Program-made: the position numbers and the translations under genes
Shown here: one piece after another, positions 14,182-55,976 of the stretch
How the letters are laid out: each line of letters starts with the position of its first letter
How positions within the stretch are numbered: position 1 is the stretch's first letter
Source: Cohnella rhizosphaerae
GTDB lineage: Bacteria > Bacillota > Bacilli > Paenibacillales > Paenibacillaceae
Direction: 5' to 3'
Assembly (NCBI RefSeq): GCF_029525575.1
Contig: NZ_JAPDIA010000001.1
Location: forward strand, 310,001 to 374,000
Length of the DNA: 64,000 nucleotides
The notes under the pieces: generated by a model
Database searches by the model: none
Seen by the model: the letters and a program-made list of their open reading frames with translations, nothing else
What the model was told of the DNA's origin: nothing

Positions 14182-14263
14182 CATGCCATTATCCCCTCGG
14201 CTCAGAATCGTGTCCATGTACCGGTTGCCGACCCTGCCGCTGAGTCAATGGGATAATGGCATG
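14182..14263. mobile_element. Miniature inverted-repeat element A (82 bp)
   Basis: Left end CATGCCATTATCCCCTCGGC-TCAG (14182-14205) and right end CTGAGTCAATGGGATAATGG-CATG (14240-14263) are inverted repeats of each other with three mismatches, enclosing 34 bp. The same repeat bounds the transposase element at 44.5 kb and elements B and C. It sits in the coaE-ytaF intergenic region. No target-site duplication is obvious. Miniature-element status is inferred from the shared ends. Confidence 0.7.
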
Positions 14264-14294
14264 AACCAAATAAAGCGCGCATTGCGGCGGACGT

Positions 14295-15068
14295 TCAAGA
14301 GGCGTGCATCAGCTTGAATATGCCCATTACGATCAAAATAATGCCCGGCAATACGGTAAGCCGCTGCACCCAACGCAGACCCGCCGCCAAAAATCCGACG
14401 CGCATGCCCGCCCAAAGAACCATGCCGCTCGCCGCGGCGATCAGAAGAGCCGTCGGCATGGCCGGGAACCCCACGAGCGCCGCCCCGATGCCGGCGCCGA
14501 AAGCGTCCAGCGATAACGCGATGCCGAGCAGCAGCGCTTCTCCCGATGTGATGATGCCCGACCGGTCGACGTCGGCGATCGAAGGCGTCCGCAAAATTTG
14601 AATGATCAGACCGAATACGCGCAGCTCAAGCGTCAGCATCGGCACAGCGCCATCGGCGTCCGCCGCATGCGACGCTTGCTCGACGGTTCTGGCAGCCGGA
14701 TATCCGCCATCCATCGCGCTTGTCGCGTCAGCTTTTTTCTCGCCACCGTCTGCAGTACTGCCGTCCGACGCGCGATTCCCGTCGTCGTCTGCCTTGCGAT
14801 TTCGCGCGAATTGAATTAATGCCCAAGTCCCGATCCCGATCAAGATCGCCGCGCCGACAGCTTTGGATCCATACGGAGACAGCCATCCGGCGATAAGCGA
14901 TCCGACGAGCATGGAAATGAGGATAACCGCGCCCGAGCAGGCCGCGATGATCGCGATCGACGTGAGCGGGATGCGAATCTTGCGCAGACCGTACGTAATG
15001 CCGACACCGAAGCCATCCAGACTGACTGCGAACGCGAGAAACAACAATGATGCCGAATGTGCGAGCAT
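14295..15068 (-). CDS. ytaF: Sporulation membrane protein YtaF
   Basis: Polytopic membrane protein of the YtaF/MntP-like family linked to sporulation, 257 residues. Two repeated halves each contain a small-residue membrane motif, AVSLDGFGVGITYGLRK in the first and ALSLDAFGAGIGAALVGFP in the second. An unusually long hydrophilic segment between the halves (about residues 90-135, rich in Asp, Gly and Ala) is probably cytoplasmic or a variable loop. ATG 15068 has GGAGGTACGGTC directly before it; the longer in-frame start at 15134 has no such site. Transport activity has not been established for YtaF. Confidence 0.9.
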   Translation of the reverse strand: MLAHSASLLFLAFAVSLDGFGVGITYGLRKIRIPLTSIAIIAACSGAVILISMLVGSLIAGWLSPYGSKAVGAAILIGIGTWALIQFARNRKADDDGNRASDGSTADGGEKKADATSAMDGGYPAARTVEQASHAADADGAVPMLTLELRVFGLIIQILRTPSIADVDRSGIITSGEALLLGIALSLDAFGAGIGAALVGFPAMPTALLIAAASGMVLWAGMRVGFLAAGLRWVQRLTVLPGIILIVMGIFKLMHAS

Positions 15069-15182
15069 GACCGTACCTCCTGCATGGCGTAGACATGCCG
15101 ACGAGCCCGGGTAGGGATCGACGGTTCTGTTCATCCTATGCAGAAAGGCAGGCGAATGCCCGCTTCGATTTCAAACAATCGG

Positions 15183-16124
15183 TTACGATTCGCTCGCGAC
15201 GGCGCCGTCCAGCCTGCGCTTAACGGCACTTCCGCTTTCGCGGTACCGTTTGGACGCAGCCGCGCTGACGCCGCTCGCCGGGCCAGCCGCGCCTTTCGGC
15301 GGCTTCTGGCACTTCGCGCACACATGCGTGCCGCGTCCGCCGACGACCGACTTGGCTATCGGATGACCGCAGGCCGGACAGGCCTCGCCGGTCCTGCCGT
15401 ATACGCGCAGCCGATGCTGGAACATCCCCATCTCGCCCTGTCCGTTAACGTAGGACTTGACCGAAGAGCCGCCGGCTTCGACTGCCGCCGTCAGCGTCGT
15501 CACGATCGCCTCGTGCAGCCGACGCCAGTCCTTCGGCTTCAATTCGCCGGCCATCCGCTCCGGATGAATGCCTGCCAGATGAAGCGCCTCGTCTACATAA
15601 ATATTGCCGAGCCCCACGATCCATTCCTGATTGAGGAGCAGCGGCTTGATCTTCGTATTCCGGCGGCCCAGCGAGCCTCGCAGCGCTTCCGCGGTGAAGC
15701 CCGCTTCGAGCGGCTCGAGCCCGAGCTTCGCGAGCGGCGGCGACGCGAGCTCCTCGCCGGCGGGGAACAGATGCATCGTGCCGAATTGACGCACATCCGT
15801 ATACCGCAGCGCGGTGCCGTCCGTAAAGTGGAAAATGACGTGCGTGTGCTTGTCGAGCGGCGCGTCGTCCGCGAACAGGCCGTAGCGTCCTTCCATGCGC
15901 AGATGGGAGACGAGCACGAGTCCGTCCAGCATCAGCCGCAGAAACTTGCCCCGCCGCTCGACGGCCGTGAACGTCCGCCCTTCCAGCATCGCGCCGAACA
16001 GGTCTGGATCGTCCGGCTTTTGCAGAATGCGCGGCAGTCGCACCGTGACCGCCCGAATCCGCTTGCCTACGATCAGTTCGCTCAGCGTACGCCTGACCGT
16101 CTCTACCTCCGGGAGTTCCGGCAT
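15183..16124 (-). CDS. mutM: Formamidopyrimidine-DNA glycosylase
   Basis: Base-excision repair enzyme that removes 8-oxoguanine and cuts the abasic site. 313 residues, about 40 longer than usual. Catalytic Pro2 and Glu3 are in MPELPEVETVRR; the helix-two-turn-helix contains LGNIYVDEALHLAGIHP; the zinc finger has CPACGHP and CAKC (about 246-268). A tail rich in Ala, Ser, Lys and Arg (about 45 residues) follows the finger. It precedes polA in the transcription of repair genes on other Firmicute chromosomes; here it lies just downstream of polA on the same strand with a 63-bp gap, so the two likely share a transcript. Confidence 0.97.
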   Translation of the reverse strand: MPELPEVETVRRTLSELIVGKRIRAVTVRLPRILQKPDDPDLFGAMLEGRTFTAVERRGKFLRLMLDGLVLVSHLRMEGRYGLFADDAPLDKHTHVIFHFTDGTALRYTDVRQFGTMHLFPAGEELASPPLAKLGLEPLEAGFTAEALRGSLGRRNTKIKPLLLNQEWIVGLGNIYVDEALHLAGIHPERMAGELKPKDWRRLHEAIVTTLTAAVEAGGSSVKSYVNGQGEMGMFQHRLRVYGRTGEACPACGHPIAKSVVGGRGTHVCAKCQKPPKGAAGPASGVSAAASKRYRESGSAVKRRLDGAVASES

Positions 16125-16187
16125 TTTCGTTCATCCTTTCTCTAAGGTGACTGTCGATCCGCTGCCGTCCGATCCGGCACGCGACGC

Positions 16188-18891
16188 TTATTTCGCCTCG
16201 TACCAGTTGACGCCCGCGCTGACCTCCGCCTTCAGCGGCACGTCGAGCGGCAGCGCGGAGGCCATCACTTCCGGCACGAGCTTTTTCATCGTATCCAGCT
16301 CTTCCGGCGGCACCTCGAATACGAGTTCGTCATGCACCTGAAGCAGCATCCGGCTTTTCAGCCCCTTGTCCCTGAGCGCCTCGGCCATACGAACCATGGC
16401 AAGCTTGATGATGTCGGCGGCCGTGCCCTGGATGGGCGTATTCATCGCGGTGCGCTCAGCGAACGAACGAAGGTTGAAGTTCGACGAGCGGATGTCCGGC
16501 AGATAGCGGCGCCGCTCGAGCAGCGTCTTGACGTAACCGTCCTGCTTCGCCTGGGCGACGATGTCGTCCATATACCGGCGCACGCCCGGGAAAGCCGCGA
16601 AGTACTGCTCGATAAAGGACGCCGCTTCCTTCCGCGTGATGCCGAGATTCTGGGACAGGCCATAGTCGCTGATGCCGTACACGATGCCGAAGTTGACGGC
16701 TTTGGCGCTGCGGCGCATATTGCCGTCCACCTGCTCGGCGCTGACGCCGAACACGTCCATCGCGGTTTTCGTGTGCACGTCCATTTCCAGACGGAATGCT
16801 TCCTTGAGCCCTTCGTCCCCGGAAATATGCGCCAGCACCCGAAGCTCGATCTGCGAGTAGTCGGCGGCGAGAATCAGCCAGTCCGGCTCGGAGGGCACGA
16901 ACGCCTTGCGAATCTGACGTCCCTCCTCCATGCGGATCGGGATGTTCTGCAGGTTCGGATATTGGCTGCTCAGCCGTCCCGTCGCGGCGATCGTCTGTCG
17001 GTAGTAAGTGTGAATCTTGCCGTCCTCCGGCCGAATTTCCTTCAGCAGGCCCTCGATGTATGTCGACTGCAGCTTGGCGAGCTGGCGGTAGTGCAGGATA
17101 AGCCGCACGATCTCGTGGTAAGGCTCCAGCTTCTCCAATACTTCCGCGTCCGTCGAATAGCCGGTCTTCGTCTTCTTGACGACGGGCAGGCCGAGCTTGT
17201 CGAACAGCACCTCGCCCAGCTGCCGGGTCGAGCCGATGTTGAATTCGAAGCCGGCGATCCGGTAGATCTCGCTTACGATCTGGCCGATTCGCGCCTGGAA
17301 GTCCTTGCCCAGCTCTTCGAGCGCTTCGGCCTGCGCGACGATCCCCTGCTTTTCCATATCGGCAAGGATGATCGCGAGCGGCTGCTCGAGCTCGTAAAAC
17401 AGCGGCTTCATGCCCGCCTCTTCGAGCTCGGCCGCCTGCCGCGAGGCGAGCCGCCGGACCGCGTCCGCCTTGGCCGCCAGATGCGCGGCCAGCGCCTCCT
17501 GCTCCGGCACGCGGAACTTCGCGCCCTTGCCGTAGGCCGCCTCGTCCGATGCGATGCCGGGCAAGCCCGTCTTCGCGAGCAGTCCGGCGAGCGACGGGTC
17601 TGCGTCTGTCGGGTCGAGCAGGTACGCCGCGAGCAAGCAGCAGAACGCCTGGCCGCGCAGCTCGAGTCCGTGACGCGCCAGCACGAGCTCCGCGCGGTGC
17701 AGGTCGTAGCCGGTCTTCGGCGCGCCGGCGTCGGCGAGCCAATCTCTCAGCGGCGCGGCTTCGGGCGCCGAGTGCAGCGCCTCGAACGGCAGCGCGTATA
17801 CCCGCTCTCCCGCGGCGATCGCGATGCCGATGCCTTCGCTCTGATGCGGGTTGTCGCCATTCGCATCAAGGACGAAGCTCTCGGCATGCGGGAGCGCCTC
17901 CGCGAGCGCCGACCAGTCCGCGGCATCGTGCACGCGCACGGTCTCGTAGGCGGCTGCGGCTTGCGGCGACGGACGCCGCGTCCGCTTCGCCCTCGCTCAG
18001 CGCCAGCCGCTCGATGAGCGACTTGAACTCGAGCTTGCGCAGCGCCGCGAGCAAAGCCGGATGCTCCGCGCCTTCCCAGGCAAGCTGCTCCCAGCTCCGC
18101 TCGACCGGAATTTCGCGCAGGATCGTCGCCAGCTCCTTGCTCATTTTCGCCGATTCCATGTTGCCGCGCACGTTCTCGCCGAGTTTGCCTTTGATCTCCC
18201 CGGCATGGGCCAGCACTTCCTCGACGCTGCCGTATTCCGCTAGCAGCTTGAGCGCGGTCTTCTCCCCGACGCCGGGAATGCCCGGAATATTGTCCGAGGC
18301 ATCGCCCATCAGACCCTTCAGATCGATGATCTGAAGCGGCGTGAGCCCGTACTTCTCCCCGATCGCCTCCGGCGTATAGCGCTCCGTCTCGCTCACGCCC
18401 TTGCGCGTGAGGAGCACGCTCGTCCGCTCGGACGCCAGCTGCAGCATATCCTTGTCGCCCGAGACGACGACCGCCTCGATGCCCGCTTGCTCGGCCTGCT
18501 TCGTCAGCGTGCCGATAATATCGTCCGCCTCGTAGCCGGGAATCTCGTAACGGAAAATCGAAAACGCGTCCAAAAGCTCCTTGAGCAGCGGAAACTGCTC
18601 GGACAGCTCCGGCGGCGTTTTTTGCCGTCCGCCCTTGTACTCGGCGAAGCCTTCGTGGCGGAAAACCGTCTTGCCCGCGTCGAACGCCACGAGCAGGTGC
18701 GTCGGGCGCTCCTCCTCGAGTACCTTGAGCAGCATCGTCGTGAACCCGAACACCGCGTTCGTATGCAAGCCGGCGGAATTCGTCAGCGGCGGCATCGCGT
18801 AGAACGCCCGGAATACGATACTGTTGCCGTCGATCAAGAGCAGCTTGTCCCGCCCGCCATCTACTTGAGTGGTTTTCCATCTGTTCGCCAT
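16188..18891 (-). CDS. polA: DNA polymerase I, frameshifted in this assembly
   Basis: Repair and Okazaki-fragment polymerase, about 900 residues after repair. Residues 1-300 are the 5'-3' exonuclease (LLLIDGNSIVFRAFYAMPPL, YEADDIIGTL, GLMGDASDNIPGIPGVGEKT). The central 3'-5' domain shows LDANGDN where an active enzyme has a DTE-type motif, so proofreading is probably absent, as in Bacillus. The polymerase domain has DYSQIELRVLAHISGD, RRSAKAVNFGIVYG and LLQVHDELVFE. The frame shifts by one base near 17955-17970: GCCGCAAGCCGCAGCC should probably read GCCGCAGCCGCAGCC, giving a run of Ala then YETVRVHDAADW. This site is not a homopolymer. Start: ATG 18891, with GTG 18903 as alternative. Confidence 0.95.
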
Positions 18892-19063
18892 CGGTTTACG
18901 CACGCTCCATCCGTTCTTCTTCCATTAACAACAATCATACCATAAACCCCGAAGGCCGGGCGACGACCGGCGCCGATCCCTCATTAAGGAAAGTTTAAGC
19001 ACCCGGCGTCCGCGGGCTGTGTTAAGATGGCTATGAAATTCAAACAGTAAGGAGAGTTCCGCG

Positions 19064-20210
19064 TTGACCCAACCGAGGCGCTACATTCCGGAGATCAACT
19101 TGTTGCGCGCGATGGCGATACTGGCCGTCGTCATGATTCATTCCACGAGCAATGCCCTGGTTCAGCTGCAGACGTCTTCTTCCTTTTACGGCTTATACGT
19201 GTTCCTGCACGAGTTCGCCGTGTTCGCCGTGCCTGCCTTTATTTTTATCAGCGGCTTCGTGCTGACGTACAATTACGCGGGCAAGCCTTTGAACGGCGGC
19301 ACGATCGCGACTTTTTTACCGCAAACGCATTTGGGGAGCCGTGCTCCCGTACGCGATTTTCAGCTTGCTGTATTTTTTTTCTAAAAAAAGGATTTCGCGC
19401 CGCCCCCCGATTCGGCGACCAAATTTCTGGGACAACTGCTCACCGGACAAGCTTACGGACACTTGTACTTCATGTTCGTCATCATCCAGTACTACGTCCT
19501 GTTCCCCATCCTGCTGCTCGCGCTACGCAGCGGCTGGGCGCGCCGCCACATCTGGTGGATCGGCATCGTGCTTCAATTCGCCTACTTTTACTTGAACCGC
19601 GAATACATCGTCCACCAGTCCGGATGGCCGAACGTGCTCCATCGCACCGGGCAGCCTGTTCATCTCGTACTTCGGCATATTCGCCGTCGCGATGTGGATC
19701 GCCATCCACTACGAGCGGATTCTGGCGTGGTTCGCGGACCGTCCCGCCGTTCGCCGGCTGTCCGTGATCCTCGCGTACGCGCTGTGGATTGTGTCCGGCG
19801 CCTATTACGTTTATTTGCGCTATCAAGGCATGGTAAATAAGGACTGGGCCGACGGTCAGGTTTTCGCCTACACGCAGTTTGTGTTCAATCTCATGTCCGC
19901 GATCTCGCTGTTCCTGCTCTCGAACGCGTTGATACGCCGGCCCAAGGCGGTATGGACCCGCACGCTCGGCAATATCGGCGTCTGCTCGTTCGGCATCTAC
20001 CTCATTCATCCCGCCGTGCTGTATTATTACCGCGACATCCCGGTTCCTGGCGGCAGCCTGGCGTTCCACGTTTATTACGCCTGCGAATTCCTGTCCGCGC
20101 TCCTCGTAGCTTGGGGCATCGCTTGGGCGATTCAGCGCAACTTCCGGTGGGCCTGGATCCTGTTCGGCACCTCCTCCGTACCTAAAAAGAAGGCAACGGC
20201 TTCCCGTTAA
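19064..20210 (+). CDS. Membrane acyltransferase (acyltransferase 3 family), frameshifted
   Basis: Integral membrane acyltransferase of the OafA/WecH type that acetylates or acylates surface sugars. About 380 residues after repair, with around ten membrane helices. The start INLLRAMAILAVVMIHSTSN carries the family's Arg and His, and the C-terminal CSFGIYLIHPAVLYY is the typical last motif. Four one-base excesses break it: T6 19312-19317, T8 19373-19380, A7 19383-19389 and GGG before CAGCC at 19649-19651. Correcting all four makes the length an exact multiple of three and restores FYRKRIWGAVLPYAIF and TGSLFISYFGIFAVAMWIA. The start is TTG 19064, with AAGGAGAG before it. Substrate unknown; a terminator follows. 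Confidence 0.86.
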
Positions 20211-20260
20211 AAAATAGAGAGCAGCCTTATTTCATAGCCAATTCCGGCGCAAAAATGGAA

Positions 20261-20288
20261 GGCCGTCCTTGCGGGCGGCTTTTTTGTT
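20261..20288 (+). terminator. Rho-independent terminator after the acyltransferase gene
   Basis: GGCCGTCC-TTGC-GGGCGGC stem followed by six T and G. Confidence 0.8.
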
Positions 20289-20400
20289 CGCCGTTTCTTC
20301 ACGAATTCAACGCAACTTTTGATTGCCGCTTTCGTCTAGAATAGAGTCGAATGCAACCGTAATCGTCGGATTTTATGAAGTAAAAGGAGACTTTGGCACT

Positions 20401-22362: not shown

Positions 22363-22372
22363 CGCAACAAAG

Positions 22373-25120: not shown

Positions 25121-25871
25121 TTAACCGAATCTGCCGGAGATATAGTCCTCCGTCCTTTGATCGCGCGGCGCCCGGAACAGCTGCTCCGTGTCCGCCGACT
25201 CCACTACCTCTCCGTTCAGGAAAAACACCGTCCGGTCCGAAATTCTGGCTGCCTGGTGCATGTTATGCGTGACCATGACGATCGTATAACTTTTTTTCAG
25301 CTCTCGGGTGAGCTCCTCGATCTTCGTCGTGGAGATCGGATCGAGCGCCGAGGTCGATTCGTCCATCAGCAGGATGTCCGGCTCGATGGCAAGCGCGCGC
25401 GCGATGCAAAGTCGCTGCTGCTGGCCGCCCGACAGGCCCCAGGCCGACTTCTTCAATACGTCCTTGACTTCGTTCCAAAGCGACGCCGAGCGCAAGCTCT
25501 TCTCGACGATGCCGTCCAGCTCGGACTTTTTTGGTCACGCCGTGAAGGCGAGGGCCATAGGCGACGTTATCGTAGATCGTCTTCGGAAAAGGATTCGGCT
25601 GCTGGAACACCATGCCGACCCGCTTCCGAAGAAATTCGACCTCCGTCTGCCCGTCGTAAATGTTGCGGTCCTGGATGACCACTTCGCCCTCGATGTGCAC
25701 GCCGGGGATCGTATCGTTCATGCGGTTGAGCGTCCGCAGCAGCGTCGACTTGCCGCAGCCCGAAGGGCCGATGAACGCCGTGATGCTCTTTTCGGGAATG
25801 GACAGATCCACGTTTTTAAGCGCATGGAACTTCCCGTAGTAAAGCTGCAGCCGTTTGGTCTCGATAATCAC
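25121..25871 (-). CDS. pstB: Phosphate ABC transporter ATPase PstB, frameshifted in this assembly
   Basis: ATP-hydrolysing subunit of the high-affinity phosphate importer, 249 residues after repair. Walker A is [19 protein letters not shown], the Q-loop [19 protein letters not shown], the signature [15 protein letters not shown], and Walker [14 protein letters not shown]. It ends with DYISGRFG, the conserved PstB tail. The frame breaks at a T6 run (25527-25532); with one base fewer it reads [20 protein letters not shown]. Note Glu-Ser after the Walker B Asp where many ABC proteins have Glu-Pro. It follows a second pstB copy, and the two proteins could form a heterodimer. Confidence 0.95.
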
Positions 25872-25969: not shown

Positions 25970-26986
25970 TCAGCCGAAACGCCCGGAGATGTAGTCGTCC
26001 GTCGACTTGCGCGACGGGTTGGTGAAAATCTTGTTCGTCTCGTCGTACTCGACCAGATCGCCGAGGAAGAAAAACGCCGTCTTGTCGGATACGCGCGCGG
26101 CCTGGTGCATGTTGTGCGTGACGATGACGATCGTATAGTCCCGCTTCAGCTCGGCGATCAGCTCCTCTACCTTGGCGGTGGACACGGGGTCAAGCGCGGA
26201 GGCCGGTTCGTCCATGAGCAGAATGTCGGGCTTGACCGCGATCGAGCGCGCGATGCACAGACGCTGCTGCTGGCCGCCGGACAACGCGAGGCCGGATTGG
26301 TGCAGACGATCCTTGACCTCGTCCCACAGCGCCGTCTTGCGCAGGCATTCCTCGACGAGCTCGTCGAGCGCGGCTTTGCTTTTCACGCCATGATAGCGCG
26401 GGCCGAACGCGACGTTTTCGTAGATCGACTTGTGAAACGGATTCGGGCGCTGCCATACCATCCCGATCTTCTGGCGGAGCCGCACGACGTCCGTCTTCGA
26501 ATCGCAAATGTTGTGGCCGCCGATCCAGATCTCCCCTTCGATCGAAGCGCCCGGGATCAGATCGTTCATTCGGTTGAGCGACCGCAGAAACGTCGACTTG
26601 CCGCAGCCCGAGGGTCCGATGAGCGCGACGACCTGACGATCCGGGAACGCCATGCTGACTTGCTTGATCGCCTGCTTTTCGCCATAGAAGACGGACAGGT
26701 CCTTGGTGTAAAACGCGGGCGGCGGCGCGGCTTGCGTGCGGGCGGCTCCGCTTGCTTCCGGCTTGGACGGCGCAGGCTTCGGCGTCTCCGCGGACGCTGG
26801 CTTCGATCCGGACGCAGGCGGTGCAGGCGTTGCGGAGGGCGCAGGCGGCAGGACGGTTCCCGTGCCGGCGTTAAGTGCGTTTGCGCCAGGCGAATGGGCC
26901 GGCAAGGTGGCATTTGCCGGATGTTGGCCGGCTGCCGGAGCGGCATTGCGCTGCGTCTCCGTCTTATCGGATGCGATCAAAGTCAC
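25970..26986 (-). CDS. pstB: Phosphate ABC transporter ATPase PstB, second copy with Pro/Ala-rich N-terminal extension
   Basis: Second PstB ATPase, 338 residues. The last ~250 are a complete Pst[66 protein letters not shown], then DYISGRFG. The first ~88 residues form a low-complexity segment rich in Pro, Ala, Ser and Lys (e.g. [18 protein letters not shown]) that normal PstB lacks, with no membrane or signal character. An internal start could shorten it, but the next good Met comes only inside the ATPase. It lies between pstA and the other pstB. Two tandem pstB genes occur in B. subtilis (pstBA, pstBB), so the duplication is known; the extension is not typical. Confidence 0.95.
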
Positions 26987-38200: not shown

Positions 38201-38391
38201 CATCCCACTATCCCATTGACTCAGTTTTTCCTTTCCGCTATCCCACTATCCCACCGACTCAGTTTTCGGTTCAGCATCCCACTATCCCATCGACTCAGCG
38301 AGTTTGAGTTTCCGGCATTTTAATAATCGCGGACCTTTGCATGACATTTCGTTTGGAATGATCTTATCTGAGCCGATGGGATAATGGGATG
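38201..38391. mobile_element. Miniature inverted-repeat element B (191 bp) with three tandem left ends
   Basis: Three direct copies of CATCCCACTATCCCAYYGAC-TCAG start at 38201, 38238 and 38275 (37-bp spacing). One inverted copy, CTGAGCCGATGGGATAATGG-GATG, closes the element at 38368-38391. The ends match elements A and C and the transposase element. It lies between convergent genes and has no reading frame. Confidence 0.7.
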
Positions 38392-44308: not shown

Positions 44309-44494
44309 ATTACATCAGCCTCCTTCTCAATATTTGTTCATAGTATAGGCATCTCGGCCACAATTGTCAATCATCAGCAGCTCTCCTAGCCACTTCTTTT
44401 AATCGCGTCCGGCTGCTTGGACAGAACAGTGCACAGGAATAAATTATCCATTTTTTTACATACCAATAACTGTAACTCCCCCTTTTGCCCTCCA

Positions 44495-45595
44495 ACCCAT
44501 TATCCCATCGAATCAGCTTGACCATGCAAAAAGTACTATTGAAATCGGAACACATGTTCGATATAATGAAAAAAATGAACCTCGGGAGGCGCGTCATGTC
44601 AGTTGAAGCCGATACTTATGAACGGTTTTGCCAACGATTTGATTCCGACGCCGCATGCGCGCAAGCTTTGTTCGCGCTTCGTTGGCCCGCAGGTTTTCGT
44701 TGTCCAGCCTGCCATTGCTGCAGCTTCTCTATCATCAGCACACGCAGACTTCCTCTTTATCAGTGCGCATCCTGTCGTCGTCAGACCTCCATTATTTCCG
44801 GCACGATCATGGAAGGCAGCCGGACGCCTCTGCCGAAGTGGTTCCAGGCGATATTCCTGCTCTCGCAATCCGCCGGCATCAGTGCGCTTCGTTTATCCGA
44901 CCTTATTATGGTCACCTACAAGACGGCTTGGCACATCGCGCATAAGATCAGGTTTGCCCTTCAAGCCGCTGAGACTTCTGAGCTTATCGACGCCGACTAT
45001 AGGCTCGATGCTTTTTATTATGGTTCGCCTGTCTTTCAGGACGCTCAACAGCCGTTACTCATCGGCGCCCCGTTGAACGAACGGGAGCGGCCTGACCGCG
45101 TCGTGCTTCATCAACCGGAGCCCAGGCATGTCGATCCGGTTAATCGGAGAGTGCTGGCATCGGGCTACCATGCGTTCGACCGCAAGCATGCCGAGGCGCA
45201 TGTTGTCCCCACGACAGGCCGCTACGGGAAGATGCATAACGCTATATTTCCAATTGCGAAAACCGTGTGCATCTGGCTGAACGATACCTTTAATGGGATC
45301 GGTGCTAAGCATTTGCAAGCGTATCTGGACGAGTTCGCCTTCCGACTGAACAAACATTTGCGATCCGAGTCTGCGCTGCATTCATTGCTGCGCTGGTGCT
45401 CGGTCACGCGCGCTATTCAATACGACGAACTTACCAGGTCGAGGGCGGTGCTCGCCGTGCCATGGATTTATTTCGGCAGCAGGTCGCGATGGAAGGGCCG
45501 CCATATGAGCAGTTGGGGTGCATAATTCTTTTAATCTCTAAAAAAAACGCCCCCTCCTTCGTGCCCAAAATCTGAGTCGATGGGATAAAGGCATG
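44495..45595 (+). mobile_element. IS1595-like insertion element
   Basis: About 1.1 kb bounded by inverted repeats: ACCCATTATCCCATCGAATCAG at 44495-44516 and CTGAGTCGATGGGATAAAGGCATG (last four bases to 45595) at 45572-45595. It encloses a single transposase-like gene. The same ends bound elements A, B and C, which lack genes. No target-site duplication was found at either side. Confidence 0.7.
44596..45525 (+). CDS. IS1595-family (ISXO2-like) transposase, divergent
   Basis: 309 residues. The N-terminus has the zinc ribbon typical of IS1595 transposases (FRCPACHCCSFS and LYQCASCRR), then MEGSRTPLPKWFQAIFLLS and MVTYKTAWHIAHKIRFAL, both characteristic of the ISXO2 group. The C-terminal HLQAYLDEFAFRLNKHL also matches. 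In the catalytic region only the first Asp is plausible (ELIDADYRLDAFYYG). The usual DE/DG-W-Y block is replaced by VLASGYHAFD, so the second acidic residue is doubtful. ATG 44596 follows CGGGAGG at seven bases. Whether it is active, or a domesticated or decayed form, is open. Confidence 0.8.
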   Translation: MSVEADTYERFCQRFDSDAACAQALFALRWPAGFRCPACHCCSFSIISTRRLPLYQCASCRRQTSIISGTIMEGSRTPLPKWFQAIFLLSQSAGISALRLSDLIMVTYKTAWHIAHKIRFALQAAETSELIDADYRLDAFYYGSPVFQDAQQPLLIGAPLNERERPDRVVLHQPEPRHVDPVNRRVLASGYHAFDRKHAEAHVVPTTGRYGKMHNAIFPIAKTVCIWLNDTFNGIGAKHLQAYLDEFAFRLNKHLRSESALHSLLRWCSVTRAIQYDELTRSRAVLAVPWIYFGSRSRWKGRHMSSWGA

Positions 45596-47602: not shown

Positions 47603-48911
47603 TCAGCCGGCTCTGCTGCGCGAATTGCGCGCGCTTCTGAATACGAACGGCGCGACCGCTACCGCAGGCACGAGCAAGGCCACTCCGGTCAGTCCAACGA
47701 TGCCATAATCCTGCAGCCATGCCGGCGCATCGTTCGCCGCCTTAAACAACCAGCCCCCGATATTCGGTCCGACGAATCCGGCAATGCCGGTCAAGGCGGA
47801 AAAGACGGCGATGTAAATCGGCCTGTCCGACTTCGGCGTATCCCCGATCAAAAAAGTTGAACACGAGCAAATTGTAACCGCCGAGCCCGATGCCGAGCAG
47901 GATGTGAGACAAGCCCAAGATAAGCAGGACGGGCAGCGCGGACATGCCCAACCACACGATGCAGGCGAGCGAAATGATCGGAAACGTCCAAGTGAGCAGT
48001 TGGCGAGCGGAAAATCGGGCGTTCAAGTTTCCCCAGAATATGTAGCTGACCATCATCACGATATTTTGTATCATCGTGATCAAAGTGACGCTGCTGTAGC
48101 TTAAATTCAGCAGGTTCAGCATCGCATAGGCGTAAAGCGGAACGACGACGTTCTGAATCAAAATGAATAAAGTGATAAAACAAGCCGCGGATAGAAAAGG
48201 GCGATCGCGGAATGGCTTTAGAATAAACCCGGCCGACAGCTTGCCGCCCGCGCTCTCGAAGGGCGGGTTCGCATAACGGGACAGTTCGATGCCGTTCCAG
48301 ACGACGCAAAGCGCGCAGACCGCGAACAAGATCGTGAAGCCCCGTCCGCCAGGCAGCCACTCCATCAGTTGGCCGCCGATCAGCAGCGTCAGACTGGCCA
48401 CGGCCCAATGAATCGTATTGCGGATGCCGAAGTAGCGCCCTCGGATCGGTGGCGGGACAATATCGGCCATGAGGGACGTCCAGATCACGCCGCCGGCTTG
48501 CGTCAGCGTAAAGGAACAGAGGAAAACGATAATATAAAGCGGCGCCCATGCCGCCTCGGGGAACAAGAGGGGAATCAATCCCGTACCTACCCATAATGTA
48601 CGGTGACCGACGCCGAGTATCGTCGTGACCTTGCGACGGTCTCTCCATCGTTCCATGGCAAACGCCATGAAGATCTGGGCTAGGAGAGTCAACGATGGAA
48701 TAGCGGCGATCAACCCGATCTGCTCGGAATGGAAGCCCAAATACAATAAAAACGCCGTCTGCAAGGGTCCGCCCAGCAAATTGGCGATGATCGTAGCGGG
48801 GATGCCTTCAATCAGGGACGCTCGCAATCCGCGTCTGATCTCTGAATCGTTAAACCGGCTTCGCAGCAGTCTCTGAATATCCAGCCCCGCGAATCTCGTG
48901 CGCTTGGTCAT
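47603..48911 (-). CDS. MFS transporter, frameshifted
   Basis: Twelve-helix major facilitator protein, about 435 residues after repair. Family features include MERWRDRRKVTTILG in the loop between helices 2 and 3, IRGRYFGIRNTIHWAVASL, and long hydrophobic segments throughout. The frame breaks at A6 47850-47855; with one base fewer, FNFLIGDTPKSDRPIYIAVF runs into a normal last part with two more helices. Such MFS proteins with a YfnC- or UMF1-like loop are common in Paenibacillus. Substrate not determinable. It is a single gene on the minus strand, convergent with yjcZ. Confidence 0.87.
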
Positions 48912-48976
48912 CGGCAGTTCCCCCCATGATGGTCGACTCTATCGAGCGCTTCCCCGCAGCTATCGCTACCGGCGTA

Positions 48977-49009
48977 TTAAAAAGCTTCGCGACGGAGCCG
49001 TCGCGAAGC
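48977..49009 (-). terminator. Rho-independent terminator after the sporulation-type kinase gene
   Basis: GCTTCGCGACGG-CTC-CCGTCGCGAAGC perfect stem on the minus strand followed by TTTTTAA. Confidence 0.9.
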
Positions 49010-49030
49010 GCGCTTTCGTTTAATCCGATT

Positions 49031-50410
49031 CTACTCTCTTTCCCCTACGTATGGCAAATAAATCATGAACGTCGTACCTTCGCCGAGCCGGCTGTCGACC
49101 TGCACCGTCCCGCCGTGATTCCGGATGATCCGGTAGCTCACCGATAGCCCGAGTCCGGTGCCTTCGGACTTCGTCGTAAAGAAGGGATCGAACAGTCTGC
49201 TCAGCGTCTCCCGGTCCATCCCTCGTCCGTTGTCGGCAATGCTGATGACGGCGTAACCGCGTTCCTTGCGCGCCGACAACCGAATGTTGGGCCTGCGTTT
49301 GTCGGCGACGTGTGCAACCGCATCCAAAGCATTTTTCACCATGTTCAAAATCACTTGCTTGATCTGCTTGACGTCGATCGAGATCGTGAGGTAAGGATCG
49401 AAAATCTCGCACGTCAATTCGACGCCTTGCATGTGCGCCTCGCTCTCGGTCAGAAGGATCGTCTCTTTGAGCAGCAAGCCCACCAACACGGTCTGGGTCA
49501 TCGGCGCGGAAGGTTTGGACGAATTGAGAAATTCGTAAATAATGTCGTTCGCTCTATCGATCTCGGATAAAATGATTCGCGCGTATTCCTGCTTGCCGAT
49601 CGACTCCAGGTACGGCTTCAATAGTTGGATAAAGCCGCGGATGCTGGTCAGCGGATTGCGGATCTCGTGCGCGATCGCCGCCGCGATCTTGCCAAGCATG
49701 GCCAGCTTGTCGTTCTGGAAGGCGCTCTGCTCGATCTGCTTGTGCTCCGAGACATCCTTGATGCTGACCAAGATGTCGCCATCGAGTTCTTCGATCTGGG
49801 AGATGCTGATCAGCAAATATCGGCTGCCGTCCTGAAATTCGCCCTGCGCGCGCCGATCGTACTTCAATTGCCTGTACATACGAATAAAAATAAGCCGCAG
49901 AGAACGGCTCAAGCTGGGGTGGAACAATAATTGGCGGAGACTCTGGCCGATCAATATGCGCCTTGGCGCCTGCAGCAACCGAGCCATCGGCACGTTCAGA
50001 AACCGAAGCGTCCCGCCAGGCTCGAACAACGCGATTCCGCTGTCCAGATGCTGAAGTACCGTCTCGAAGCGGCTCGGACGTTCTTCCTGGAGCGGGATCG
50101 CCTTCGCCGCGGCCTGTCTCAAATCTTCGGGCAGCTGCTCTTCCTTCGCCGCGGCCGATTCGGAACAGGTATGACTGCCTAGAATCTCGTGAAGAAACAA
50201 TAGACTTCGATGCATGAGCGCCAGCCTGTCCTCGCTATCCGCATGCGAGACGAGCAGGCGAACGTTCTCCTCGTGATGCTCGAAAATGTGCTCTGCCGGA
50301 ACGCCGTTCAGCAGGTCGAGCAGCTCGCTCAGATCGTATCCCTCCCTCGTGTCCTCGTGAAGCACGTACTCCACGAGAACCGGGAAATATCTCGTTCTCC
50401 ATTTCTCCAT
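49031..50410 (-). CDS. Soluble PAS-domain sensor histidine kinase, sporulation-kinase type
   Basis: Cytoplasmic kinase without membrane helices, about 459 residues from ATG 50410, which has GGAGG eight bases upstream. The in-frame start at 50548 lacks one. An N-terminal helical region is followed by a PAS domain (VLQHLDSGIALFEPGGTLRF), then the phosphoacceptor AAIAHEIRNPLTSIRGFIQL, N-box MVKNALDAVA, and G-boxes SIADNGRGMD and GTGLGLSVSYRI. The architecture resembles the KinA/KinE kinases that feed the Spo0 phosphorelay. No response regulator is adjacent, as is usual for such kinases. Role in sporulation is inferred. Confidence 0.92.
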   Translation of the reverse strand: MEKWRTRYFPVLVEYVLHEDTREGYDLSELLDLLNGVPAEHIFEHHEENVRLLVSHADSEDRLALMHRSLLFLHEILGSHTCSESAAAKEEQLPEDLRQAAAKAIPLQEERPSRFETVLQHLDSGIALFEPGGTLRFLNVPMARLLQAPRRILIGQSLRQLLFHPSLSRSLRLIFIRMYRQLKYDRRAQGEFQDGSRYLLISISQIEELDGDILVSIKDVSEHKQIEQSAFQNDKLAMLGKIAAAIAHEIRNPLTSIRGFIQLLKPYLESIGKQEYARIILSEIDRANDIIYEFLNSSKPSAPMTQTVLVGLLLKETILLTESEAHMQGVELTCEIFDPYLTISIDVKQIKQVILNMVKNALDAVAHVADKRRPNIRLSARKERGYAVISIADNGRGMDRETLSRLFDPFFTTKSEGTGLGLSVSYRIIRNHGGTVQVDSRLGEGTTFMIYLPYVGERE

Positions 50411-50588
50411 GCCGTATTCCTCCAGGCTCGCCCTTGCGTCAAGTTCATCATAGTAAAAGACTGGGAAACCTGTCAATCGGAGAAGTTGTCGAATAAAAAC
50501 GCGAAAAACGCCGCTCTCGGACTGATGACTTGTGTAAAAAAGTCGCATATCCGGAAACGGCGTCCACGCCTGCTCTATATGTCGAAAA

Positions 50589-51014
50589 CTACAGCGCTCC
50601 GCCCGTCGTCCGTTTGAGACGGAGTTTGTGCCTGCGCTGGCTCAGCACGCCGAGCCTGCGCTTGAGCTGCCGCTCCCACTCTTCGTCTCCGATCTTCTTG
50701 GCGAAGGTAAGCAGGTCCAGCCCCATGTCGATCTGATTCTGCACCATGAGGAGCGGATCCTCCTCCTCGTTGTTGACCGAATTCTCGTGCAGATCCTTTT
50801 CCGACTCGTCCACATAGTCCTGGAAGTCTACTTCGGACGCGCCGTCGCCGTGCGCGTAGTCGGCCAAAATCTCGTATTCGTTCTCGACCAGATAATGCAC
50901 CTCGACCCGGTGGCATACCGGACAGAACAGAATCGGGACGTTGTGAATTCGCGTGCGATAGTGCTTCAGCGTCCCCTTCGTCCCGATCATGCTGGCTCCG
51001 CAACAGAATGACAT
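50589..51014 (-). CDS. Hypothetical acidic zinc-ribbon protein
   Basis: 141 residues, not recognised. The N-terminus has SFCCGASMIG and ILFCPVCHRVEVHYLVENEY, a CxxC pair plus two adjacent Cys that could bind zinc. The middle is strongly acidic (ASEVDFQDYVDESEKDLHEN), and the C-terminal third is a charged helix ending LGVLSQRRHKLRLKRTTGGA. It resembles small YgiT/YokU-like zinc proteins only in the CxxC part. The gene has its own unit between the kinase gene and the peroxiredoxin gene, all on the minus strand. Confidence 0.7.
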   Translation of the reverse strand: MSFCCGASMIGTKGTLKHYRTRIHNVPILFCPVCHRVEVHYLVENEYEILADYAHGDGASEVDFQDYVDESEKDLHENSVNNEEEDPLLMVQNQIDMGLDLLTFAKKIGDEEWERQLKRRLGVLSQRRHKLRLKRTTGGAL

Positions 51015-51138
51015 CGACTTCCCCCTCCCTTATGGACGTGTATGGCTTTGCCGGATGCTTCACTATATTCTCCTCTAAAACGGCAAATTCCTGCCGCGAT
51101 CCCAAAAGTCAATAAAAGGGCAGCCGTCTAAAGGATGC

Positions 51139-51170
51139 CAAAGGCGCATGCGGGTGCATGCGCCTTCGGC
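51139..51170 (-). terminator. Hairpin after the peroxiredoxin gene
   Basis: A symmetrical stem AAGGCGCATGC-ACCC-GCATGCGCCTT lies 15 bases past the peroxiredoxin stop. A T-run is weak, so termination is likely but not certain. Confidence 0.55.
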
Positions 51171-51184
51171 TGAGCGATATTCAA

Positions 51185-51733
51185 TTACTTGGCGACCAGG
51201 TTCTTGTCGCCCGGCTTCCAGTTGATCGGGCACAGCCCGCCGGATTGGAGCGCCTGGAGCACGCGAAGCGTCTCTTCGACGCTGCGGCCTACGTCGTTGT
51301 GATTGACGACCTGGTACTTGAGCACGCCGTCCGGATCGATGATGAACAGGCCGCGCAGGGCGATGCCTTCTTCTTCGATCAGCACGCCGTAATCGCGCGC
51401 CGCTTGCTTCGTGATGTCCGCAGCCAGCGGGAAGTTCAGTTGGCCGAGACCGTTGTCGTTCTTAGGGGTGTTGATCCAAGCCTTGTGGCTGTGGACGCTG
51501 TCCACGCTGACGCCGAGAACTTCGGTGTTCAGCGCCTTGAACTGATCGTAAGCTTCGGAAAGCGCGACGATCTCCGTCGGGCATACGAAGGTGAAGTCCA
51601 GCGGATAGAAGAAGAATACGAGCCACTTGCCCTTATAATCCGTAAGGGACGCTCTGCCGAATTCCTTGCCGTCACCGGATACCGTCTCCAGGTTAAAGTG
51701 CGGGGCCTCGCGGCCGACCAAACGCTCTGCCAT
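51185..51733 (-). CDS. 2-Cys peroxiredoxin
   Basis: Thiol peroxidase of the AhpC/Prx1 class that reduces hydrogen and organic peroxides, 182 residues. The peroxidatic Cys lies in DFTFVCPTEIVALS and the resolving Cys in SGGLCPINWKPGD, making it a typical 2-Cys enzyme. SVDSVHSHKAWINT is also family-typical. GGAGG lies about eight bases before ATG 51733. Its reductase gene (ahpF-like) is not in the window. A palindromic stretch before the gene (TTGATTTTGATTCTCAGTC) faintly resembles PerR/Fur boxes, but I do not call it. Confidence 0.96.
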   Translation of the reverse strand: MAERLVGREAPHFNLETVSGDGKEFGRASLTDYKGKWLVFFFYPLDFTFVCPTEIVALSEAYDQFKALNTEVLGVSVDSVHSHKAWINTPKNDNGLGQLNFPLAADITKQAARDYGVLIEEEGIALRGLFIIDPDGVLKYQVVNHNDVGRSVEETLRVLQALQSGGLCPINWKPGDKNLVAK

Positions 51734-51916
51734 TGACCATTACCTCCTGTAATTCCGACTGCAAAGCCGGGCCTTATTTGCTATTTACGATAGTATCATA
51801 GACTGAGAATCAAAATCAAGCTGTAGTCATTACTTCTTTGAAGTTATTCTAATCTACTACCCGCCATCTTTCAGCGCGTAAGACCCGGATTGCTCGCCCG
51901 CGGCTTTTGTCGCGAT

Positions 51917-52996
51917 TTAGCGAACCATTGCGGCTACGATCAGATCGCCCATCGCCGTGGTGCCGATCGCCTGGCTCTTGTCCACCGCGATATCGCCCGT
52001 ACGGTGACCCGCGTCAAGCACTTGCTTGACGGCGCGCTCGATCACTTCCGCCGCTTCGGCATAGCCGAACGTCAGCTGGAACATGAGCGCGACGGACAGG
52101 ATCGTCGCGATCGGGTTGGAAATGCCTTGGCCCGCGATGTCCGGCGCGGAGCCGTGAACCGGCTCGTACAGGCCGAAGCTGCCTTCGCCCAGCGAAGCGG
52201 ACGACAGCATGCCGATCGATCCGGTCAGCATGGCGGCCTCGTCGCTCAGAATATCGCCGAACATGTTCTCCGTCACGATGACGTCGAAGCTGGACGGACG
52301 GCGCAGCAGCTGCATCGCGCAGTTGTCGACGAGGACGTGCTCGAGCTCGACGTCCGGATATTCCGGCGCGATCTTGTTGACGGTCTCGCGCCACAGGCGG
52401 CTCGTCTCGAGGACGTTCGCCTTGTCGACCGAAGCGAGCTTCTTGCGGCGCTTCTGCGCGATCTCGAAGCCTTGGCGGACGATGCGCTCGATCTCCTGAA
52501 CGTTGTAAACGCAAGTATCGACGGCTTCCTGACCGCCCGCGCCTTCGCGGCGGAACTTCTCGCCGAAGTAGATGCCGCCGGTCAGCTCGCGCACGACGAT
52601 CAGGTCGGTGCCTTCGAGCACTTCGGGCTTCAGCGTCGAGGCGTCCTTCAGGCAGTCGAACACGACGGCCGGACGGATGTTGGAGAACAGGCCGAGCGCC
52701 TTGCGGATGCCGAGCAGGCCCGTCTCCGGACGCAGCTCCTTCGAATTGTTGTCCCACTTCGGGCCGCCGACGGCGCCGAGCAGCACGGCGTCCGCGCGCT
52801 GGCAAATGTCGAGCGTCTCTTGCGGCAGCGGCGTGCCCTTCTCGTCGATGGCGATGCCGCCGAACAGGCCGTGCTCGAGCTCGAACTTATAACCGAACAG
52901 CTCTTCCGTTTTTTTCAGTACCTTTATCGCTTCGCCGACGACTTCCGGGCCGATGCCGTCGCCGGCGATGACCGCTATCTTCTTCACTTCTGCCAT
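51917..52996 (-). CDS. leuB: 3-isopropylmalate dehydrogenase
   Basis: Leucine pathway enzyme that oxidises and decarboxylates 3-isopropylmalate with NAD, 359 residues. [19 protein letters not shown] starts the fold; [12 protein letters not shown] and [20 protein letters not shown] carry substrate and metal residues; [20 protein letters not shown] and [20 protein letters not shown] close it. ATG 52996 (AEVKKIAV) is chosen over 53056 because the family starts there and GGGAG precedes it. leuA lies 4 kb away, with moeA-mobA-mobB and a repeat element between, so the leu genes are not contiguous here; leuC and leuD are absent from the window. Confidence 0.97.
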
Positions 52997-53159
52997 AATC
53001 TTAAAGTTCACTCCCGACTTAGGTTCCATTCCGATTGCTATGTTTATTTGTAGCACATATCGCGGGTCACGTCCAAAACATAAAAACTATGTCATTAATA
53101 GCTGAGAACTATGAGCGCGCCGCATATCCGCCGTTTTGCGCTGCTAAGCTGCCGAATAA

Positions 53160-53679
53160 CTAGGTTCGCGCAGCGGCGATCGTCAATGCCGCGATCCGCA
53201 CGACATCGTTCCGGTCCACGACCGGCAGACTGGGATGCGAAAAGGGAAAACAGGCGGAAACGCCAACGACGTTGACGAGCGCATCAAGGAGTTCGGCATC
53301 GCGCGGTTCCCGCAGCAGCACCCATTTGGCATAAGGCGCGCGTTTGAATCCTTCGGCCAGTATGACATCTGCCGGCGGCAGCCGCCCAGCCAGTTCCTCC
53401 AAAGACGCTTCGCCCGGCGTCCATATGCCCGATAGGGCAGCCGATGAAGCGCCGGTCCCTGCAGCGCCGGCCGCCAGATGTAGCCAGGTATCCTTGTCGG
53501 GCAGATCGAGCGAGGCCGTGCCCTCCGAAACATTTCCCCCCGGGAGGATGACCGTGATGCTTGAGCGTGGCGACGGTCATGCCCAAGCTGGTCAGATGCC
53601 TGACGAGCGCGCAGAGGAGCGTCGTTTTGCCGCTGTCGGCGTAACCTACGATTTGAATAACGGGAGGTAAAGCAATCAC
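53160..53679 (-). CDS. mobB: Molybdopterin-guanine dinucleotide biosynthesis protein MobB, frameshifted
   Basis: GTP-binding partner of MobA in guanylation of the molybdenum cofactor, about 172 residues after repair. The P-loop is QIVGYADSGKTTLLCALVRH, followed by ATLKHHGHPPGG. After removal of one base in C6 53536-53541 it reads NVSEGTASLDLPDKDTWLHL and continues to ADVILAEGFKRAPYAKWVLL, a typical MobB C-terminal region. The start is GTG 53679, overlapping the mobA stop (GTGA). It forms moeA-mobA-mobB with two overlapping junctions. The molybdoenzyme it serves is not in the window. Confidence 0.92.
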
Positions 53680-54302
53680 GGACGCAAACGCTCCTTCGCA
53701 AGCCGGTAATCGTCCGGCGTATTCATGTTCATCAGCCGATCGGCTGCTTGATCGCCGGGCAGCCATTTGACGAGGCGCATCCGTTGCGTAGCCGCCATCA
53801 CCCGCCGGTTCCCGCTTGCCATCGCGTCCGCCCATGCGCCAATCGTGCGCTGGCGGTATAAGGCGCATAGCGGATGAAGCTTTCCGCCGGCTTCGGGCAG
53901 GACGGCGTCCGCCTCCGGATACCGGGCCAGAGTGTCCGCCAACGCCCGCCAAACGAAGGACCCTGCGAGCGGGTAATCGCAGGCGACGACAAGCTGCAGG
54001 GGTAAGTCGGACACCCTCATTCCCGCGCAAATGCCGGCGATCGGACCGAAATCCGCAACTTCGTCCGCGATCGCGCGGACGCCGTCCGGCAGAAAGGCGT
54101 ATTCGCGCTTGCGGTCCGCTACGACCGTTATCCGTTCGGCGATCCCCGACAGGCTTCTGCACAGTCGCAAGAGCAGCGGCTCGCCGTTGAATTCGAGCAG
54201 TTCCTTGCGGCCGCCCATCCGCCGCCCCTCCCCGCCGCACAAAACGATGGCATGACAGCCGGGCCTCGCATCGTTAAATTTCCCGTTTTGTCCGGATATC
54301 AT
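53676..54302 (-). CDS. mobA: Molybdenum cofactor guanylyltransferase MobA
   Basis: Transfers GMP to molybdopterin, 208 residues. The N-terminal nucleotide site is IVLCGGEGRRMGGRKELLEF, and VVACDYPLAGSFVWRAL carries the metal-binding Asp. HPLCALYRQRTIGAWADAM and MNTPDDYRLAKERL near the end are family-typical. ATG 54302 overlaps the moeA stop (ATGA), so a longer in-frame reading through moeA is excluded. The gene lies between moeA and mobB, as in many Gram-positive genomes. Confidence 0.94.
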   Translation of the reverse strand: MISGQNGKFNDARPGCHAIVLCGGEGRRMGGRKELLEFNGEPLLLRLCRSLSGIAERITVVADRKREYAFLPDGVRAIADEVADFGPIAGICAGMRVSDLPLQLVVACDYPLAGSFVWRALADTLARYPEADAVLPEAGGKLHPLCALYRQRTIGAWADAMASGNRRVMAATQRMRLVKWLPGDQAADRLMNMNTPDDYRLAKERLRP

Positions 54303-55557
54303 TGCCATGCGCGATCCGCCCAGCCCGGAAGCAGCCGGACGTCGATCAGCGTCCCCGCTCGCGTCTCCTCGGCCGAAGGCGGTATGGCCAGCAGCGCGTT
54401 GGCTTCCCCGATCGAGATGAGACCCGACGAGCTGTTCTCTTCGCAAGGACGGGCGGTCAGCATGCCGTCCTCGACCCGCACGACGCCACGCAAGAACCGC
54501 GGGTTGGCATTGCTCTTTATGCCGCTTTCCGCCAAGCGGGCCCGGCACCATTCGAGTTTGCCGCTGCCTCCGCCCATCCGCTCGATCGCCGGCCGCGCCA
54601 ACAGCTCGAATCCGGCGAAGCAAGCGCCCGGATTGCCCGACAGTCCGATGAGCAGCTTGCCTTCCATGACGATGGCGCCGGATGCGCTGCCGGGCCGAAT
54701 GGCCAGCTTGGAAAATAAGAGATCGGGACCTGCATCGCGGAACAACGCGCCCATGACATCGCTGTCGCCGACGGAGATGCCGCCCGACACGACGACCAAA
54801 TCGGCTTCGGCTAGCGCCCGCAGGAGCGTTTGCTTCGCTTGTCCCGGCTCGTCCGGCACATGCGCATCCCCTACCGGTTCTCCCCCCCGCCGATTCGATC
54901 AATGCCCGCAGCATCGGCATATTGCCGTTGCGTACCTGCCCGATGCCCGGCTCGGCCTCGACGGGCACGACATCGTCGCCTGCGGTAACGACGATGACCC
55001 TGGGCCTGCGATATACGCGGGGCTTCGCTATGCCCAGGGAAGCCAGCAGCGCGGCCTGGCCCGGCCCGATTCGCGTTCCCGCAGCGATCAGCGCGCTCCC
55101 TGCCGCTGCCTCGGCGCCAGCCGCGGTCACATGCCTGCCCTTTGTCTCCGGCCGCAAAAAAGACAGCTTGCCGAATGCCGTCGCCGCCTTCCTTTATAGC
55201 CACCGCTTCCTGCATCACGACCGTATCCGCGCCTTCGGGCAACGGCCCCCCCGTCCCGACGCGCATAGCCTCGCCCGGACGAACGCGGTGCGTCACGGCG
55301 CCGCGAGCGTCTCCTTGCAACAGCCGAAGCATGACAGGGCTCTGCGGCGACGCCGAGGCCAGATCCGCCGCGATGACCGCATAGCCGTCCATGCCGGAGC
55401 GCGCAAACGCCGGTATCGGCGCATGCGTCCGCACCGGCTCCGCCAATCGGAGGCCGTTCGCTTTGAGCAGCGGCATCCCTTCGGCAACGGTCGGTACGGC
55501 CCAAGCTAAGATGCGCCGCTGCGCTTCATCAAGGGGGGATCGCGTCCCGACGTCCAT
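54299..55557 (-). CDS. moeA: Molybdopterin molybdenumtransferase MoeA, two homopolymer frameshifts
   Basis: Inserts molybdate into adenylylated molybdopterin, about 418 residues after repair. The start MDVGTRSPLDEAQRRILAWA leads to FARSGMDGYAVIAADL and VGTGGPLPEGADTVVMQE. The central MPT-binding fold shows VVTAGDDVVPVEAEPGIGQV and SGGISVGDSDVMGALFRDAG; SGNPGACFAGFELLARPAIE is followed by the C-terminal beta domain. Breaks sit at A6 55156-55161 and a C7 run at about 54883-54889; one base fewer at each joins the three parts and makes the length a multiple of three. It is first of moeA-mobA-mobB, and its stop overlaps the mobA start. Confidence 0.92.
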
Positions 55558-55648
55558 TCATTTTTCTCTAGGCCCCTTAATTATTCAATATAAAATCAAC
55601 GAATTCCAAATAATTACATCCGCAATATGAATATCGATTTTCTGATTG

Positions 55649-55976
55649 CATCCCATTATCCCATCGGCTCAGAACGGCCTCTCGCCACGGCACTCCATCG
55701 AACGGAAGCGAAAGCGTCTGCGAGGTACGACTGCTCCATCAACGACTGCTCCATCAACGAGTGCATTATCACCGACTGCTCCATCGACGTGACAATTCCA
55801 TCGACATGACAATTCCATCGATGCGAAGGCTCCATCGGCGTGACGTCTCCATCGAGGCGATTGCTCTACCGACGTGACGGATAATCGCAACCGTCATGTT
55901 AACTATTTTATCATTTCTACCCGACTCGAAATAGTGCGCAGGACGTTCAGCGCTGATTCAATGGGATAATGGGATG
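55649..55976. mobile_element. Miniature inverted-repeat element C (328 bp)
   Basis: Left end CATCCCATTATCCCATCGGC-TCAG at 55649-55672, right end CTGATTCAATGGGATAATGG-GATG at 55953-55976. These are the same 24-bp ends as in elements A and B and the transposase element. It fills the gap between moeA and the aminotransferase gene. It contains a degenerate tandem repeat (see the separate entry) and no credible gene. Confidence 0.7.
55726..55880. repeat. Degenerate tandem repeat within element C
   Basis: Nine or so units of 15 to 17 bp share the core CTCCATCRA or close variants (CGACTGCTCCATCAA twice, CGACTGCTCCATCGA, CGTGACAATTCCATCGA, CATGACAATTCCATCGA, CGTGACGTCTCCATCGA). Unit length drifts from 15 bp on the left to 17 bp on the right. 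Confidence 0.8.

Follow-up and report, generated by a model that had tools for sequence, protein, structure and literature searches.

In the REPIN/RAYT system, according to the sections of PMC8049555 that describe it, a single-copy, vertically inherited gene derived from a transposase (the RAYT) is combined with pairs of inverted repeats around a short variable spacer (REPINs), of which an E. coli genome carries 69-235. Transposases of the insertion sequence (IS) family IS1595 have an N-terminal zinc finger except in the IS1016 group, and eukaryotic Merlin-related proteins, with which they share the DDE_Tnp_IS1595 superfamily, include some with a broken DDE motif that are preserved without it and for which domestication has been suggested (PMC8101967, in its passages on these groups). 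Prokaryotic miniature inverted-repeat transposable elements (MITEs), including the terminator-like SPRITE, are gene-less, intergenic inverted-repeat elements, as outlined in parts of PMC10969869. Here we analyze a locus of Cohnella rhizosphaerae in a window of 64,000 nucleotides (the whole stretch studied; contig NZ_JAPDIA010000001.1, positions 310,001 to 374,000), which holds the gene of an IS1595-derived protein, P0001, between two inverted repeats (arms), together with three gene-less pairs of like arms (satellites). Read as largely domesticated in Cohnella, it would be REPIN/RAYT-like, arrived at by another route.

Like REPIN/RAYT, the locus has two inverted repeats around a variable spacer and a vertically inherited gene; unlike RAYTs, which are tyrosine (Y1) transposases, P0001 matches IS1595 models and has lost the active site, and only three satellites lie near the gene, far from the number of REPINs in E. 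coli. With IS1595 the family shares the N-terminal zinc ribbon, which P0001 has, the TYKTAW and KHLQxYLDE-type blocks and, as far as the arms are concerned, one gene between inverted repeats, but the protein has no DDE motif, no 8-bp target duplication was found beside the arms, and the arms vary in number and do not begin with GGGG as in ISApl4 (described in part of PMC12561309). The Merlin-related proteins, in contrast, are eukaryotic and have neither zinc ribbon nor LexA box, and satellite arms of this kind are not reported in the passages of PMC8101967 that treat them. As in MITEs, paired inverted repeats without a gene stand in relation to a coding element. Dispersed copies occur in a complete relative genome (G025); those of the window genome are local and mostly fixed in position. 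Unlike in MITEs, old sites are conserved in place, have conserved arms and are associated with a LexA-box gene for an inactive transposase. The integron integrase and IS50 transposase genes, likewise carried by elements, also have an SOS box at the promoter, but the product here has no transposase active site. The suggestion, made from the window's letters alone, that this may be an undescribed group has held up, in that searches of the open-access PMC literature listed no description of the family.

The reading that we favor, with about even confidence, is that P0001 is a LexA-controlled, cleavage-dead descendant of an IS1595 transposase that binds paired arms and has been largely domesticated in Cohnella. 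If so, P0001 would be made after DNA damage through LexA, would bind the arms and would bring inverted ones together much as a transposase does with the two ends of its element; because the protein presumably cannot cut, the outcome would be a local protein-DNA loop rather than a jump. In genomes with the amplified element, DNA breakage would be the work of something other than the family protein. Should this hold, the family would be a second, independent bacterial transposase kept with its repeat sites, beside RAYT/REPIN, with the cutting center lost and SOS control added, and many genes called 'IS1595 family transposase' in Cohnella and Paenibacillus would not encode transposases in the usual sense.

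A previous sequence-only reading of the window had proposed four inverted arm pairs with shared ends, all intergenic and one of them, of 1.1 kb, with a gene. We recovered the pairs at 14182/14263, 38201/38391, 44493/45595 and 55649/55976, far above chance: within the window the 18-nt arm core matches 10 times at up to 3 mismatches, compared with a mean of 0.10 and a maximum of 1 in 100 shuffles. The 1.1-kb pair was indeed the sole gene-bearing unit, the other three being gene-less with ends common to all four, and the elements were intergenic as judged against surrounding genes named by Pfam. Neither a GG-type IS1595 end nor an 8-bp duplication was seen, in agreement with that reading; the longest word common to the 30-nt flanks at the four sites was 4-5 nt. 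That reading mentioned neither the missing active site nor the LexA box described below. The features are as follows:

14182..14263: satellite of 82 bp without a gene, made up of arms 14182-14205 (+) and 14240-14263 (-); it separates the 3' end of the Mntp gene from the start of coaE
38201..38391: satellite without a gene; its left side has arms at 38201, 38239 and 38275, its right side a single arm at 38368-38391
44493..44516 (+): arm on the left side of the P0001 gene
44539..44567 (+): promoter-like hexamers TTGAAA and TATAAT, whose 17-bp spacer holds a putative LexA/SOS box, GAACACATGTTC (44548-44559)
44596..45525 (+): P0001, 309 aa, IS1595-derived protein without transposase active site
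45572..45595 (-): arm on the right side of the P0001 gene
55649..55976: satellite without a gene, preceding a MoeA_N gene; its arms are 55649-55672 (+) and 55953-55976 (-)

Terminators face the 38201 site from both sides and the 55649 site from the right, and no intrinsic terminators scored at the 14182 and 44493 sites. Short tandem repeats fill the spacers of some satellites (window 55720-55880, L097 1400-2250, L044 16870-17100); they differ between species, and some derive from the inner arm end (TCAG).

Scanning species genomes for relatives of P0001 found 398, of which the 80 best were kept as named loci. They come from Cohnella, Paenibacillus and Ammoniphilus; 17 of them are C. silvisoli copies, and counts without that species use the other 63. 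The window genome (G000) comprises 8.5 Mb in 9 contigs and is 91.5% complete. Five of the other labeled genomes have inferred names: G005 is Cohnella sp. GbtcB17, G007 C. xylanilytica, G012 C. ginsengisoli, G018 Cohnella sp. JJ-181 and G020 C. fermenti. G040 is the C. silvisoli genome.

P0001 passes the Pfam cut-off for Zn_ribbon_IS1595 (PF12760; 44.3 bits against 25.4), falls below that for DDE_Tnp_IS1595 (PF12762; 23 bits against 27) and also scores under the cut-off of the NCBIfam IS1595 model. We aligned 97 family rows (P0001, 74 named loci, 8 paralogs from its own genome and 14 G025 copies) with 28 canonical rows, consisting of one G002 protein and 27 viral-contig loci with long matches, taken from 80 viral-contig hits kept at 22-43% identity. 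Of the canonical rows, 27/28 carry D, D, E and K, and the remaining one carries D, D, H and K. In the family, 0/97 rows have D at the D1 and D2 positions together, and the segment carrying D2 is missing in the printed ones. The four zinc cysteines, TYKTAW, H239, L240, Q241 and Y243 are each present in 96/97 family rows or more, and Y142 and K117 are present in all 97, versus 2/28 and 5/28 canonical rows. The AlphaFold2 model of P0001 is confident (predicted local distance difference test score, pLDDT, 89.2; predicted template-modeling score, pTM, 0.85). P0001 belongs to a large Paenibacillaceae family, derived from IS1595, in which the zinc ribbon and conserved blocks are kept and the active site is lost. 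A separate observation concerns G002, a genome of the same genus, in which L053 (G002:C56) and L109 (G002:C59) hold an IS1595-type protein with D1 and D2 intact; the G002 protein scored best of the canonical proteins against P0001 (146 bits) and is possibly close to the family ancestor.

At the named loci, inward-facing arms lay upstream of the gene in 73/80, downstream in 70/80 and on both sides in 66/80 (49/63 without C. silvisoli), with 4 wrong-way arms, and shifted controls had arms on both sides in 0/312. The arm core TATCCC-N7-CAG is common to the family, and the outer half differs by lineage. This resembles the single gene between terminal inverted repeats of IS1595, except that amplified units in C. 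silvisoli and G025 reach past the arms. When the 30 nt beyond each outer arm were compared at 66 named loci and at the four sites of the window, 0/70 sites shared a word of at least 8 nt, and target duplications above chance are rejected for these flanks.

The P0001 gene is apparently under DNA-damage (LexA) control, judging from the sites upstream of it and its relatives. The Bacillus subtilis LexA operator, GAAC-N4-GTTC (given in part of PMC4234289), lies within -170 to +30 of the gene exactly at 53/80 named loci and with up to 1 mismatch at 77/80 (36/63 and 60/63 without C. silvisoli), compared with 5/3301 and 275/3301 control windows. In the window genome the counts for the family loci, from -200 to +30, are 10/12 exact and 12/12 with up to 1 mismatch. 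At P0001 the box is at the promoter, between the TTGAAA and TATAAT hexamers 17 bp apart, and the genome's own lexA gene has LexA-type boxes upstream. Separate from the true lexA, a small gene for a LexA-like helix-turn-helix protein (L277, C4:575763-575954) has two LexA boxes upstream.

The P0001 gene was found at the same place in four sister species (G005, G012, G013 and G018). Among the matches listed, several of its neighbors were 96-100% identical and others 63-86%, the P0001 gene itself being 68-82% identical. The ratio of nonsynonymous to synonymous substitution rates (dN/dS) was 0.07-0.15 in the six pairs of four intact orthologs, values that are only rough because dS is 0.7-2.8, and it indicates that the gene is under purifying selection. 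Higher dN/dS came from a C. xylanilytica pair (0.63), for which the compared stretch (389 codons) ran past the shared coding region, and from the duplicates on C6 of the window genome (0.33), which hardly differ. The 14182 satellite is present in all five species, with invariant columns at 45/48 positions in the arms, 8/34 inside and 17/90 outside, the last count omitting 70 positions at the coaE start, 32 of them invariant. In a satellite 19 kb from a second paralog, compared across five species, the arms align and the remainder hardly does. Aligned in this way, one satellite of each of two lineages has conserved arms while the DNA inside and outside has turned over. The arms of the 55649 satellite likewise occupy the corresponding position in each of the four sister species. 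Simple IS decay is rejected, the ortholog dN/dS and the arm conservation speaking against it, and the version of the family in this Cohnella lineage is old and stably inherited. One G018 satellite (L051:9433-9541) looks as though it combined the left half of a G013/G005 satellite with the right half of a second one (L049:7364-7461, L045:2208), as would follow if a deletion of about 15 kb had brought two satellites together at their arms.

The idea that four copies in 64 kb reflect a high-copy family of miniature elements did not survive a genome-wide pattern search. The arm pattern has 13 matches at up to 2 mismatches, 10 of them inside the window; of the others, two are on C9, 19 kb from a 53% identical paralog, and one stands alone on C5. 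A high-copy MITE family in the window genome is thus ruled out by the genome searches, and the repeat is largely limited to these sites here. The contrary picture, in which the repeat sits at conserved positions without mobility, also largely holds here: the gene and most satellites are fixed in the sister species, though amplified copies of the family occur in relatives.

P0001 has relatives at 12 loci of its own genome (15 matches), the other loci being 35-53% identical to it and 3/12 in pieces. Inverted repeats span the gene at 12/12 loci at up to 4 mismatches in 20, in an uncontrolled scan (shuffled flanks, tested separately, reach 13-16/20 by chance), and TATCCC is present in both arms at 11/12, C9:1472k having TATACC in one arm. 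A second arm type has 74 matches at up to 3 mismatches (0 for the reversed pattern), which form 7 gene-flanking and 25 satellite sites; 11/25 of the latter lie within 50 kb of a paralog, versus 3.5 expected (P 0.00026). For 15 satellites near a paralog, the arms of the local gene were the best match among the 12 genes in 9. The second-type sites that were printed consist of single arms or of direct-arm arrays facing inverted arms. Some paralogs, C6:524k (L034) and C6:758k (L037) in the window genome and L127, L128 and L133 in C. xylanilytica, are nearly identical within the gene and unlike in arms and flanks, the near-identity starting at the promoter or in the first codons and ending near the stop codon; these recent duplicates probably reflect gene conversion confined to the coding region.

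In C. silvisoli the 17 kept loci are of one type, 90.9-93.8% identical in the best 45 of 136 pairs, and the shared sequence extends past the arms, which lie inside the amplified unit rather than at its ends. The unit likewise extends beyond the arms in G025, which has at least 9 gene-bearing copies, the query copy and eight that are 83-89% identical to it over at least 1.2 kb, and 11 derivatives without most of the gene. The ratio of nonsynonymous to synonymous polymorphism (pN/pS) has a median of 0.25 and a maximum of 0.49 among 15 C. silvisoli copies, and a median of 0.31 among 14 G025 copies, some of them old. Since both genomes carry amplified copies, the family has been mobile elsewhere, and the domesticated and amplified forms look like two states of one family; we infer the step between them. 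A congener of G025 was sought for empty sites, and the search returned G025 alone. Amplification also raises the question of how an element is moved when its protein has no DDE center. A Y1 transposase was rejected as the mover, PF01797 not being found in G000, G007 and G025; C. silvisoli has one partial match (28.4 bits).

Several results weigh against a cleavage-dead protein with its own sites, largely domesticated in Cohnella. Foldseek gave the P0001 model no PDB match at E 0.001 or better, so the fold is without independent confirmation; weak matches, with low TM-scores, were to IstA (E 0.09) and MuA (E 0.7). Some family members sum to a score above the NCBIfam IS1595 cut-off, C9:74k of the window genome reaching 88.2 with neighboring stretches. 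Of the second-type satellite sites, 14/25 are more than 50 kb from any paralog, and 6/15 satellites near a paralog match another gene's arms better, the local gene ranking 2 to 8. The 38201 satellite is less stable than the others: G018 has a pair at the same end of the gene, G013 and G005 have a single arm, and no arms were seen in G012. The C. ginsengisoli copy of the P0001 gene is split between frames, and three of the 12 paralogs are in pieces, so the gene's function is dispensable. Finally, as the family has multiplied in C. silvisoli and G025, 'domesticated' may hold for some lineages only.

A broader reading, which we regard as rather doubtful, is that of an SOS-controlled, IS1595-descended class without catalytic center that multiplies beside intrinsic terminators by a non-DDE route and that in Cohnella has become a selected host system, each paralog maintaining its own cluster of paired binding sites. 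It is unlikely that the gene-bearing and gene-less units are instead non-autonomous passengers, moved in trans by a canonical IS1595 or other transposase and now present as old copies. Such passengers would fit the G025 derivatives, which keep both ends and in some cases the LexA box and gene start, and a candidate mover is at hand in C. silvisoli, with one canonical-scoring IS1595 gene (214 bits), and in six other genomes with long genes of 195-223 bits (G001, G002, G008, G024, G036 and G037). Passenger genes should decay, yet both the recent C. silvisoli copies and the orthologs are under selection by the pN/pS and dN/dS given above, and old satellite arms should have decayed as well, yet they are conserved. 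No arm pair was found around the canonical gene of C. silvisoli, target duplications at 8 nt number 0/70, and the best stretches matching the IS1595 model (NF033547) among the matches listed reach 61 bits in the window genome and 65 bits in the complete genome G025, none of them canonical-scoring.

Less probable again is an element that moves itself without a DDE center, its protein either driving the movement or recruiting recombination or replication enzymes of the host, and new copies inserting next to intrinsic terminators. Multi-copy families of active-site-less proteins do remain under selection, and terminators face the right side of the unit above controls, both in G025 (gene-bearing copies 9/9 testable, 15 loci given; derivatives 7/11; control 11/150) and in C. 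silvisoli (14/17; control 36/408), with a similar-looking end sequence at the terminator-facing side in both. The search ranges used, of 190-230 nt beyond the outer arm, had however been chosen after the sequences were read: within 40 nt, C. silvisoli had terminators at 0/17 loci upstream and 0/17 downstream, and the range was then widened, while the other named loci had 2/56 and 9/53 (control 64/4000). A new active site is conceivable because Y142 and K117 are in every family row and in few canonical rows, but a known nuclease motif was not recognized among the conserved residues, and a lost or unseen helper may have acted. Quite improbable, finally, is a local transcription regulator, with the arms as operators of neighboring promoters that a loop between two arms shuts or opens. 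The 55649 pair does bracket a conserved promoter-like block (about 55897-55918) ahead of the MoeA_N gene, clear in 4/5 species and weaker in G018, and the left arm of the P0001 gene lies just upstream of its promoter-like hexamers; against this, the neighboring genes named by Pfam have no evident common function, and the 38201 pair is between two facing terminators, not at a promoter.

Elsewhere in the window, long direct repeats at 25175-25778 and 26024-26626, 848-849 bp apart and 73-78% identical, probably represent two paralogous ABC transporter ATPase genes, a function that is guessed.

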